DNA of 64,000 nt from Cryobacterium breve (lineage in GTDB: Bacteria; Actinomycetota; Actinomycetes; Actinomycetales; Microbacteriaceae), in the NCBI RefSeq assembly GCF_004402375.1, contig NZ_SOGJ01000011.1, positions 124,001 to 188,000 of the forward strand, in the 5' to 3' direction. Position numbers and translations under genes: made by a program. Below, piece by piece: positions 31,206 to 34,096 of this stretch. Numbering within the stretch: the stretch's first letter is position 1; each line of letters begins with the position of its first letter. The notes under the pieces were generated by a model. The model made no database searches, was not told where the DNA came from, and saw nothing but the letters and a program-made list of their open reading frames with translations.

Positions 31206-32737
31206 GATGTCATTCCTTTCCGCAGGTAGAGGGCCTGCCCTACCTGCTCGATGCCCGGCCGGGTGACGCCGTCGAGGTCGGCGATAGACCAAGCCACGCG
31301 GAGCACGCGATCGTAGCCGCGCATGGTGATGCCACCGCGTTCGAGCGCGCGATCGAGGGTGGCCGTGGCCGCGCCGCCGAGACGGGCCTGAGGGCCGCGC
31401 AGCCAGGGCCCTGGCACATCGGAGTTCAACGTCCACGGGGTTCCGGCGAGGCGTTCAGCGGCGGCGGACCGGGCCTCCACCACCCGTTCCCGGGCGACGG
31501 CGCTCGTCTGTCGAGGTGCCTCGGCGGCGAGACGCAACTGGGCCGCGGTGATGCGCTGCACCTTCAGCTGGATATCGATGCGGTCGAGCAACGGGCCGGA
31601 GATGCGAGCAAGGTACCGCCGCCTGGAGCTCGGCGGGCAGGTGCAGTCCAGGTCGGGTGCGCCGTACTGACCGCAGGGGCACGGGTTGGCCGCCATCACA
31701 AGCTGGAATCGGGCGGGGAAGTGGGAAACCGCGTTGGCGCGGTGGATGCTGATCACCCCCGATTCCAAGGGTTGCCGGAGCGCGTCGAGCACCGCCGAAG
31801 CGAATTCAGGAGCTTCATCGAGAAAGAGCACGCCGTGCGAAGCCCGGGCTGCGGCCCCCGGCCTGATCTGCCCACTGCCGCCGCCGACCATGGCCGCCGC
31901 CGTGGCCGTGTGGTGCGGAGCCTCGAGCGGCGGCCGGGTGATCAGCGTGCGCCCGACGGCGCGCCCGCTGAGCGAGCACATGGAGCTGACCTCGAGGGAA
32001 GCCTCGGGGTCGAGGTCCGGTAACAGCCCCGGCAGCCTGGCGGCCAGCATGGTCTTGCCTGCTCCGGGCGGCCCGACCATAAACACATGGTGACCGCCGG
32101 CGGCCGCGATCTGCAGGGCCAGGATGGCGTCATCGTTGCCGATGATATCGGCCAGATCCGGTTCGACCGCCTCCGAGGTCGCATCGCCGGGTGCACAGAT
32201 GGTGTCGACAGGCACGGGTTCGAGTTCGGCGCCGTGCCAGATGGCGGCGTCACGGAGGGAGGCGACGCCGATCACGCGCACACCCGGCACGAGCGATGCC
32301 TCCTCCACATTGCCGGCCGGGACCATGACAGTGTCGTGCCCGAGCCGGGACGCCGCGATCACCGCCGGCAGCATGCCCGGCGTCGGCCGTAGCCGCCCGT
32401 CGAGGGCCAGCTCGCCGATGTGCACCACCCGGCCTACGGAGGCCGCCGAAACCACCTGGTCGGCCCCGAGGCAGGCCAGCGCGATGGCCAGGTCGAAGCC
32501 CGATCCGTGTTTGGGCAACGATGCCGGGGACAGGTTGATTGTGAGCTTGTTGCGGGTGAGCGGGCAGCCCGAGTTCTTCGCAGCCGCACGCACCCGTTCC
32601 GTCGCCTCTGACAGAGCCGCATCGGGCAGCCCGATCAGGATGATGCCCGGCAGCTGGCCGGAGATGTCTGCCTCCACCTCCACCAACGCCCCGGTCAGCC
32701 CGACCAAAGCCACCGCATGCGTGCGCGCGAGCCCCAT
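31202..32737 (-). CDS. comM: Mg-chelatase-like AAA+ protein ComM/YifB
   Basis: A helicase-related AAA+ ATPase that in Haemophilus and Vibrio aids branch migration during transformation. The 511-residue protein has an N-terminal Lon-like domain (IILIGLPDAALSEATERVRAAAKNSG), Walker A GPPGAGKTML, Walker B LFLDEAPEF, a zinc-finger-like set of cysteines (NPCPCGQYG... DCTCPPSSRRRY) and the sensor region LLDRIDIQL. It shares one base with yraN upstream (TGATG) and four with dprA downstream, giving a tightly coupled DNA-uptake operon. Confidence 0.95.
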   Translation of the reverse strand: MGLARTHAVALVGLTGALVEVEADISGQLPGIILIGLPDAALSEATERVRAAAKNSGCPLTRNKLTINLSPASLPKHGSGFDLAIALACLGADQVVSAASVGRVVHIGELALDGRLRPTPGMLPAVIAASRLGHDTVMVPAGNVEEASLVPGVRVIGVASLRDAAIWHGAELEPVPVDTICAPGDATSEAVEPDLADIIGNDDAILALQIAAAGGHHVFMVGPPGAGKTMLAARLPGLLPDLDPEASLEVSSMCSLSGRAVGRTLITRPPLEAPHHTATAAAMVGGGSGQIRPGAAARASHGVLFLDEAPEFASAVLDALRQPLESGVISIHRANAVSHFPARFQLVMAANPCPCGQYGAPDLDCTCPPSSRRRYLARISGPLLDRIDIQLKVQRITAAQLRLAAEAPRQTSAVARERVVEARSAAAERLAGTPWTLNSDVPGPWLRGPQARLGGAATATLDRALERGGITMRGYDRVLRVAWSIADLDGVTRPGIEQVGQALYLRKGMTS

Positions 32738-33093
32738 CAGAACACCCCCGTCAGGTGCTCGATCACGGGCTCGGTGCCGGGACGGATGATCACGGCGATA
32801 GCGTCGACGCGGATGCGGGCGGGCCGGGCATCCGCCTGCTCGCACCAGGCCGCCGCGAGGCGACGCAGCCGAGCGAGCTTGGTGACCGTGATTGCCTCGA
32901 ACGGATGCCCGTAACGCGTTCCCGACCGTGTCTTCACCTCGACGAAGACGACCTCTCCCCCGACCTCGGCGATCAGGTCGATCTCACCCTGCGTGCACCG
33001 CCAGTTGCGCTCCACCACCCGGTAGCCGGCTGCGGCGAGAAAGACCGCGGCGCACTCCTCGCCCTGCCTGCCCAGTTCGTCTTTGCGTGCCAC
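32737..33093 (-). CDS. yraN: UPF0102 endonuclease-like protein YraN
   Basis: A 118-residue protein with a restriction-endonuclease-like fold: GRQGEECAAVFL, WRCTQGEIDLIAE and VVFVEVKTRSG carry the E, D and ExK residues typical of that fold. Its function is not settled, but it is nearly always beside comM and dprA. The GTG at 33093 is chosen since GGAGG lies 5 nt before it and protein similarity starts there; the longer frame to 33219 adds unrelated residues. Confidence 0.9.
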   Translation of the reverse strand: MARKDELGRQGEECAAVFLAAAGYRVVERNWRCTQGEIDLIAEVGGEVVFVEVKTRSGTRYGHPFEAITVTKLARLRRLAAAWCEQADARPARIRVDAIAVIIRPGTEPVIEHLTGVF

Positions 33094-33221
33094 GAGCACC
33101 TCCGCCCCCAGCGTGGCGGGCAGCCATTCCCCGCACTCGCGGGGCCGGAAAGCTGTGCGCTCGCCTGAACGGCCCTCCTTGGGGAGGACCGGCCCCAGCC
33201 TGGAATTCAGCGACTCCATCC

Positions 33222-33323
33222 CGAACGGATTCGACGGAGATTTTGCCGGAATCGGGCGATAATCCGCCGAAATGGCGGTTCTGACCGCAAATCTCCGTCG
33301 AATTGGTTCGACGCCGATTCCGG
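33222..33323. repeat. Interleaved inverted repeats (candidate structured element)
   Basis: Arm A (33222-33246) pairs with A' (33287-33310) around the 14-bp core TTCGACGGAGATTT. Arm B (33246-33255, CCGGAATCGG) pairs with B' (33314-33323). The order A-B-A'-B' cannot form a simple nested hairpin. Inside lie two overlapping hairpins that exclude each other: CCGCC/GGCGG (33264-33278) and GCGGT/ACCGC (33275-33288). The element occupies most of the gap between the SGNH hydrolase stop and yraN and matches no terminator or riboswitch class known to me. Confidence 0.75.
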
Positions 33324-33336
33324 TGCCCCACCTCCG

Positions 33337-34038
33337 CTACAACGTGAGGGCGGCCAGCTCTGCGTCCATCCGCGACGCGAAGGCGGCGTTGCCTGCGTCG
33401 TTGGGGTGCAGTCCGTCATCGGCCATCCATTCGGGGTGCCCGTCGAGCCAGTGCGAGGCTCCGGCGATGTAGTCGGCATCGACGGCGAGCGCGGCCGCCC
33501 GCACCCAGCCGATGATCTGCTCCACGGATTCCGGTCGCTCGTCGGTATACCAGAACGGCTCCAGGACGACTATGCGCGCCTCCGGCAGGGCCGCCCGGAT
33601 CCGCTCGAAGTCACGCATGATCGCGACCTCGATCTCGTCAGCACGGGCCGGCATCGAGAAGTTGTCGTTGAGTCCCATGGTGCAGATCACGATGTCCGGC
33701 CCGGCGGCGATCACCTGGTCGACGATGTCGTCACCCATCCTGCGGTTGTTCACGAAGCCGAGGCCGTCACGGCTCGGGTTGACCTCGGTCCACCCGCGCT
33801 CGGACGAGACGATGGTCGACCAACGTCGGTCCGGCGCCGACGTCCCCGTGCCGCGCGTGTAGGAGTCTCCGTAGAAGGCCACCACGGTCTCACCGGGGGC
33901 GCGGTTCGCGGTGTCGGGATCGGCCTCGCCCGACCCGCGGCTCAGGTTGCCGCCGGCGACGACCAGGGCGACGATCGCCGCCACCGCCAGCATCACGGCC
34001 GCGGCGATCCAGAGGGCAGGGTGTCGAGGGAAGGTCAT
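33337..34038 (-). CDS. Membrane-anchored SGNH/GDSL hydrolase
   Basis: A 233-residue esterase-like protein outside the membrane. A membrane anchor lies at residues 9-30 (WIAAAVMLAVAAIVALVVAGG). The catalytic blocks are YGDSYTRGTG (Ser), GLNDNF (block III Asn) and DGLHPNDAG (Asp/His). It may act on acylated surface polymers, which is a guess. ATG at 34038 begins the n-region of the anchor; upstream frame sequence has no family match. Confidence 0.87.
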   Translation of the reverse strand: MTFPRHPALWIAAAVMLAVAAIVALVVAGGNLSRGSGEADPDTANRAPGETVVAFYGDSYTRGTGTSAPDRRWSTIVSSERGWTEVNPSRDGLGFVNNRRMGDDIVDQVIAAGPDIVICTMGLNDNFSMPARADEIEVAIMRDFERIRAALPEARIVVLEPFWYTDERPESVEQIIGWVRAAALAVDADYIAGASHWLDGHPEWMADDGLHPNDAGNAAFASRMDAELAALTL

Positions 34039-34096
34039 GACACTGATTCGGAGCAGCACACCACACGGGTTGGTCGCCCGCGCCGGCCCGTCATGA

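Follow-up and report, generated by a model that had tools for sequence, protein, structure and literature searches.

A dispersed palindromic element of Cryobacterium whose fixed-length spacer appears to be selected for DNA shape

About 100 bp of noncoding DNA in front of yraN in Cryobacterium breve hold interleaved inverted repeats, which raises the question of whether they encode a structured RNA or belong to a repeated DNA element. The window analyzed here is a 64,000-nucleotide stretch of contig NZ_SOGJ01000011.1, and gene coordinates within it are codon-usage gene calls made in this analysis. The first-pass annotation of this DNA had proposed a pseudoknot, a switchable RNA, or a MITE/REP-like unit. 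The main inverted repeat that it described was confirmed: A (33222 to 33243) and A' (33289 to 33310) are 22 nt long, 91% complementary, and separated by 45 nt. They are far beyond chance, the next-best copy in the same genome matching at an E value of 5e-16 in BLAST. The second pair, B (33246 to 33255) and B' (33314 to 33323), is also present over 10 nt at 100% complementarity in the order A-B-A'-B', but it is not a feature of the repeat family described below.

In family terms, the window copy comprises a left arm of the CCCGAACGAATTCGACGGAGATTTTG type on the plus strand (33220 to 33245, with a 13-mer core at 33230 to 33242, position 33230 being 157230 on contig C26 of the C. breve genome, G000), a variable 41-bp interior (33246 to 33286, within the 47 bp between the 13-mer cores, 33243 to 33289), and a right arm on the minus strand that is the left arm inverted (33287 to 33312, core at 33290 to 33302). 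No T run lies beside either arm, as read from the sequence. The adjoining segment that contains B' (33313 to 33337) may be a weak remnant of the right tail of a MITE with IS982-type ends that formerly enclosed the core; the residual similarity was judged by eye and the window gives no tail match, and the orthologous site in a related genome (G058, locus L226) carries such a tail at an E value of 3e-22. The 3' end of a gene for a GDSL/SGNH-type hydrolase (33337 to 34059, minus strand) adjoins the element; its end at 33337 is 24 bases beyond the right arm and 14 bp from position 33323. On the other side lies yraN (UPF0102; 32737 to 33219, minus strand), which starts at 33219 or later. Residues before position 43 show no family similarity; translation therefore probably begins downstream of the ATG at 33219, near 33093 to 33099.

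The annotation had considered that the arms might have no other copies. Instead, they define a dispersed family, F1, in this genome and its genus. The annotation had suggested a BLAST search of the same genome; with the element as query and 40 of 126 candidates scored, the C. breve genome (G000) yielded 50 matches scattered over about 40 places. The 13-base arm core occurs at 91 + 87 sites in this genome with at most one mismatch, whereas the reversed pattern occurs at none, and F1 itself has 83 copies there against none for a reversed control. When both cores were required to lie 47 bp apart with up to 3 mismatches, F1 was found in 22 of 57 Cryobacterium genomes at 1 to 119 copies each (reversed control, 0 in all 57), including 118 copies in G058 and 118 in G012. 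Exact arm pairs, among the matches listed, fell on contigs of Cryobacterium and of Glaciibacter superstes. A shorter core pattern matched 7 of 398 sampled Microbacteriaceae genomes, 10 of which were of the same genus: G000, G045, G047, and G054 had 17 to 79 copies, and G040, G075, and G190 had one copy each, with the rest of the arms absent by eye. As far as these searches see, F1 is confined to Cryobacterium and its neighbor Glaciibacter and is patchy within them. Its absence from 35 of the 57 genomes at this sensitivity argues against an essential general function. Because F1 elements were detected via their arms, decayed copies are under-counted in these figures.

Comparison among copies bears directly on the RNA possibility. 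At the window locus, plus-strand RNA folds at -56.8 kcal/mol (z of -4.56, 0 of 200 shuffles as good), and the minus strand gives a z of -2.30 (5 of 200 shuffles as good). Across 168 distinct copies with a 47-bp spacing, however, B/B' is complete in one, the window copy itself, and its mean pairing (3.08 of 10) is no better than that in re-paired copies (3.21). The two inner hairpins that the annotation had described as mutually exclusive fare similarly. Hairpin 1 (CCGCC/GGCGG) can form in full in 2 of 168 copies, with a mean pairing of 1.73 versus 1.82, and hairpin 2 (GCGGT/ACCGC) is complete in 1 of 168, with a slight excess in mean pairing (1.49 versus 1.34, standard deviation 0.065). Interior pairings symmetric about the dyad showed a mean excess of at most 0.013. 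The covariance check advised in the annotation was made with RNAalifold on the window copy and 19 further copies from its genome, and it recovered the arm stem alone, with a kept two-sided change in 0 of 14 pairs and a covariation term of +0.25. Rfam returned only four matches in 32900 to 33600, all far below gathering scores, and no gathering-level match in five related loci. The arms are paired at 19.4 of 22 positions on average; one-sided changes number 364, and compatible two-sided cells 45. Their conservation also fits a long RNA stem, because invariant pairs cannot tell DNA from RNA. With B/B' and the hairpins private or nearly private to the window copy and no covariation in the interior, a pseudoknot or switchable RNA was rejected as a feature of the family.

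The aligned F1 copies have nearly invariant arms, CCCGAACGAATTCGACGGAGATTTTG and CAAAATCTCCGTCGAATTGGTTCG, of about 24 bp each in a core of 93 to 95 bp. The 218 profile hits were reduced to 185 distinct copies by removing 4 without an arm pair and 29 that were repeats or too near an end. Core-to-core spacing among the 185 was 47 bp in 168, 48 in 12, 49 in 3, 46 in 1, and 54 in 1, as searched over 35 to 61 bp with ties resolved toward 47; the 17 copies with other spacings were excluded to give the 168. Since other loci were fetched by fixed-gap patterns (exact arm cores 44 to 50 bp apart for the 107 loci L083 to L189; a pattern fixed at 47 bp for the groups G041 to G054 of the spacer comparison), only the copies of the C. 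breve genome speak freely on spacing, and 50 of 54 of these have 47 bp (48 in 2, 49 in 1, 46 in 1). In the analyses of alignment, base replacement, placement, and spacer identity, C. breve copies means 42 (or 45) copies, and 8 more from that genome (L001 to L008) were counted in the other group. Measured from the arm start, similarity among copies is lost near -11 and +84 in G044 (14 copies), G041 (9), and G042 (11), so that in these three genomes the roughly 93-bp core is itself the unit. In G042, G050, and G056 loci, a CGACGGA that hardly varies is surrounded by arm variants that differ by species (GGAGTTT, GGACTTT, GGACATT, and ATCGACGG), as would be expected if the arms coevolved with a binding protein.

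The interior between the arms is free in sequence and regular in composition. Its pairwise identity is about 0.39 to 0.51 in six-column steps, compared with about 0.30 in the flanks, and mean spacer identity in groups from other species is 0.33 to 0.44 (33% for G042 spacers). The A/T fraction ranges from 0.08 to 0.89. It reaches 0.68 to 0.89 at positions 20 to 21, 30 to 32, 40 to 42, and 50 to 51 and is mostly 0.1 to 0.3 between them, with maxima near 5, 15, and 24 bp on either side of the dyad and the greatest power at a period of 10; the flanks are flat. The window copy carries four such tracts, placed from its sequence and the family profile: AAT at 33250 to 33252 (about -15 from the dyad), ATAAT at 33259 to 33263 (-5), AAAT at 33270 to 33273 (+5), and TTCT at 33279 to 33282 (+15). 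Of the nonconsensus bases at the A/T positions, 46 of 108 are the other W base (expected 0.167, P = 2e-10), as are 129 of 315 in a second count (expected 0.153, P = 7e-28). TpA makes up 7% of WW steps in the interior versus 19% in the flanks. The strongest interior covariation is between neighboring bases within a tract, where AAA and TTT both occur.

The A/T phase is kept in G041 (10 copies), G042 (11), G044 (14), and a mixed set (27), at 0.37 to 0.54 against a null standard deviation of 0.035 to 0.055, with 0 of 2,000 permutations as good in each group. The positions for this test were taken from the C. breve copies alone, whereas an earlier version had chosen them after the same groups had been seen. 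The species groups share some ortholog loci and are not fully independent, and common descent may account for part of the A/T phase. Such a rhythm is what phased A-tracts and nucleosome-type wrapping predict. A/T tracts every 10 bp are the signature of bent or wrapped DNA, and the F1 spacer would be shaped in this way.

Arms and interior also differ in their history at shared loci. The annotation had envisaged that the arms might decay freely among close strains. In 58 ortholog pairs with 47 bp in both members, the arms are 90.8% identical and the interior 56.6%; the flanks, mostly coding, are 88.1% identical over 70 pairs (1 of 71 was skipped, both members being in one locus). Spacer length is equal in 60 of the 70 pairs and different in 10. 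Detection always relied on the arms, yet the difference between arms and interior cannot be put down to chance survival of detectable arms.

Turnover was followed along G000 contig C26 and G058 contig C33, which are collinear at about 86%. Nine of the 14 G000 elements scoring above 30 bits have a counterpart in the matching G058 interval (8 places), and a tenth lies opposite a 26-bit partial element at a G058 contig end. The remaining G000 elements have none above 30 bits in G058, where the window locus is a scar. Reciprocally, 8 of 17 G058 elements are common to G000. The seven of nine shared pairs with equal spacing have arms 82 to 93% and interiors 39 to 76% identical, and spacing differs by one base in the other two. 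Insertion boundaries were unreadable at most non-shared places, the intergenic DNA being too diverged. These gains and losses, together with the many copies in C. breve and its relatives, bear out the MITE/REP-like side of the annotation.

The annotation had also tied the repeats to a yraN-comM-dprA operon. The window locus was recovered as 30 loci from 57 genomes, 19 of them with both flanking genes together. Among those 19, G000 and G012 carry the element, G058 has the scar, and 16 have nothing; the link of F1 to yraN-comM-dprA looks incidental. The G058 scar (L226), at the site orthologous to 33220 to 33330, consists of CCCGAACGAATTCGACGCCGG plus an intact MITE tail, and the core there was apparently lost by deletion between two TTCGACG repeats. 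In locus L227 (G008), the gap between yraN and the hydrolase gene holds a different palindrome, CGAACCGACACCTTTGAGGGG and its inverse, where G000 has F1.

F1 copies are concentrated near gene 3' ends and between convergent genes. Among 158 classified copies, 68 lie in convergent, 78 in tandem, and 12 in divergent gaps, compared with 99, 316, and 106 of the 521 gaps in loci L083 onward, element-bearing gaps included. The convergent excess (P = 4e-9, Fisher) and the divergent deficit (P = 1e-4) are both significant; the 158 exclude elements fewer than 700 bases from a locus end, as well as 4 located within genes and 1 that lacked a neighbor. In the C. breve set, 29 of 57 distances to a neighboring gene end are 50 bp or less. 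According to excerpts of PMC3733652, REP elements elsewhere have the same placement.

Several G058 cores form the middle of a longer unit, and three units with both terminal repeats measure 327, 358, and 424 bp. Four units were compared, and their ends match those of a 1,024-bp element of G005 that encodes a 303-residue protein of the IS982 transposase family (197 bits against a cut-off of 130). Three complete IS982-family copies lack the F1 core. CTAG stands at both ends of these three copies; the three MITE units do not carry it at both ends. The complete elements (L392 and L406 in G005, L398 in G066) are 1,024 to 1,026 bp long, with repeats close to AGATGAGTGAGTCCTAAT. In G054 (L395, 1395 to 1485), about 10 bp separate an IS982 end from an F1 core, possibly a stage of core capture. 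Of 13 MITE tails in the 2.03 Mb of loci examined, 11 adjoin a core. Several copies thus demonstrate that in the G058 lineage the core travelled inside an IS982-ended MITE, and in this lineage the MITE parts fade while the F1 core persists. No shared flanks surround the cores of G041, G042, and G044, where the core stands alone.

An IS982 C-terminus was found in 15 of 57 genomes. It was not found in the copy-rich G000, G058, and G012, and IS982 was rejected as the current mover; this absence is not firm, because drafts often break at IS copies. An autonomous element bounded by F1 arms was likewise rejected, since in L083 to L189 no distance up to 2,500 other than 47 to 48 occurs more than twice. 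Among 5,324 combinations of offsets, none revealed a target duplication of the core; the highest z (4.7) was inside the arms, and the best symmetric end offset, at z of 2.2, was not significant. RAYT transposase genes (Y1_Tnp, PF01797) were found in none of 15 genomes of the genus, C. breve included, and in 5 of 14 control genomes.

A second palindromic family, F2, with arms TGTGGCYAACTCAGGA, has 39 + 48 arm sites in the C. breve genome versus 3 in the control. In the loci examined, its 41 arm pairs 20 to 110 bp apart have spacings of 55 (1), 66 to 67 (10), and 76 to 78 (30), and none between. A step of about 11 bp between classes suggests helical phasing; because the concentration is 0.85 to 0.92 at every period between 9.5 and 12, the exact period is not fixed. 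The F2 interior has a weak 10-bp A/T signal. Examples are G000:C15:7884-7981 and C28:198638-198746 (L255 and L265). Some F2 copies lie near F1 copies and have an inner GGAGAT motif in common with them, and G000:C13:14719-14934 is a tandem array of the F2 arm with a 50-bp period and five minus-strand arms in a row.

The window palindrome is thus real and is not an RNA switch, and the spacer of this dispersed palindromic DNA appears to be selected for shape. On balance, F1 is probably a lineage-specific, dispersed, intergenic element that serves as a double-stranded nucleoprotein site and spreads in the manner of a REPIN or MITE. A putative dimeric or multimeric protein would bind both inverted 24-bp arms, and the 47-bp spacer between the arm cores, whose anatomy and conservation pattern are observed directly, would be bent or wrapped. 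Bending or wrapping would explain why, in the proposed model, length and A/T phase are kept while sequence drifts. On this reading, F1 spread as a REPIN/MITE-like repeat, in part (as several copies show) as a passenger of the IS982-ended MITE of the G058 lineage, and may persist at gene 3' ends and in convergent gaps either because it pins supercoils or because it is simply tolerated there. A bolder version can be entertained only tentatively: that F1 represents a new class of repeat under selection for DNA shape, with about 100 sites per genome at which a putative protein would hold two specific arms and wrap the 47-bp loop of phased A-tracts like a nucleosome, contributing to host chromosome architecture at gene 3' ends and hitch-hiking on insertion sequences.

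The alternatives differ in which of these observations they leave aside. A pseudoknot or conformational switch in RNA that controls yraN is suggested by the A-B-A'-B' order of the window copy, yet the near-uniqueness of B/B' and both hairpins and the presence of the element at only 2 of 19 comparable yraN loci make it almost certainly wrong. A simpler RNA element, a long hairpin acting as a bidirectional terminator or as a stabilizer of mRNA 3' ends, would account for the stem that the arms can form and for the location of F1 near gene 3' ends; the left ends CCCTGA (12 of 168) or CCCTAA (8 of 168) could even supply a stop codon, frame permitting. However, with no T run at either window arm the sequence does not qualify as an intrinsic terminator, the primary sequence of the arms is itself conserved beyond mere pairing, and the interior consists of A-or-T tracts that swap AAA for TTT without covariation. 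We consider this explanation quite improbable.

It is possible, though we rather doubt it, that F1 is a purely selfish REPIN or MITE whose arms are transposase-binding ends without a host function, the length and bend of the spacer being needed only for one transposase complex to join ends 47 bp apart. The inverted arms, the sharp unit boundaries in G041, G042, and G044, the turnover between G000 and G058 (counterparts for 9 of 14 and 8 of 17 elements), the patchy distribution, carriage within an IS982-ended MITE, and the restriction of F2 to spacings of 55, 66 to 67, and 76 to 78 are all consistent with this. Nevertheless, none of the 15 genomes tested has a RAYT/Y1 transposase, no IS-like arm-to-arm distance was conspicuous, no target duplication was detected, and a decaying insertion should not keep its arms intact at shared loci as its interior diverges. 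A wrapping site for gyrase or a nucleoid protein, BIME-like and absorbing supercoils between convergent genes, would fit the convergent-gap bias of F1. Gyrase is, to our knowledge, universal in bacteria, and F1 is patchy. The composition of F1 is also flat outside the arms. Excerpts of PMC6379681 describe an Escherichia coli gyrase motif that likewise has 47-bp regions, two of them, with a 10.75-bp GC periodicity that is interpreted there as wrapping of DNA around the GyrA C-terminal domain. In that description, however, two periodic regions surround a central cleavage region, whereas F1 has one between specific arms, and we regard a gyrase-type site as unlikely.

We found no published account of such a repeat among the papers listed on Cryobacterium repeats or among the best-ranked papers on MITEs with phased A-tracts and on IS982 and MITEs in Microbacteriaceae, and a search on actinobacterial REPIN/RAYT systems returned no papers; in the excerpted text of PMC7381226, on Cryobacterium, "palindromic" is used only for CRISPR. 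Several known systems nevertheless resemble F1 in part. The gyrase motif and BIME-2 share an A/T-G/C periodicity of about 10 bp over 47 bp, as given in the same excerpts of PMC6379681, whereas F1 has specific 24-bp arms and a single periodic region. REPINs, as characterized in excerpts of PMC3116915, have many intergenic copies with inverted conserved ends and a less conserved spacer whose length matters, and F1 has two such ends around a less conserved spacer of constant length. That account calls compensatory changes common and stresses length plus hairpin capacity; the F1 spacer, in contrast, has phased A/T tracts without compensatory pairing, and F1 differs from REPIN/RAYT systems in having no PF01797 gene in the 15 genomes. 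CGTC-tagged REP dimers are dimers as F1 is, and the F1 arms contain a conserved CCGTCGAA with the CGTC tag. However, G044-type arms (CCCTAACCAATTCGACGG) lack, by eye, a stem of 8 to 9 bp with a loop of 4 to 5 bases, and A/T phasing, present in F1, goes unmentioned for these dimers in the excerpts available. IS-derived MITEs resemble the G058 copies, in which the core lies within 327-, 358-, and 424-bp units with IS982-family ends, but the G041, G042, and G044 copies are the core alone and the IS of 1,024 to 1,026 bp lacks it. According to excerpts of PMC3116915 and PMC3733652, REPINs and REP dimers have fixed-length spacers with free sequence; the purpose of such spacers is unsettled. In F1, the combination of helical A/T phase and fixed length distinguishes selection on DNA shape from RNA folding; taken with F2 spacer classes about 11 bp apart, it makes DNA bridging testable with short synthetic DNA.
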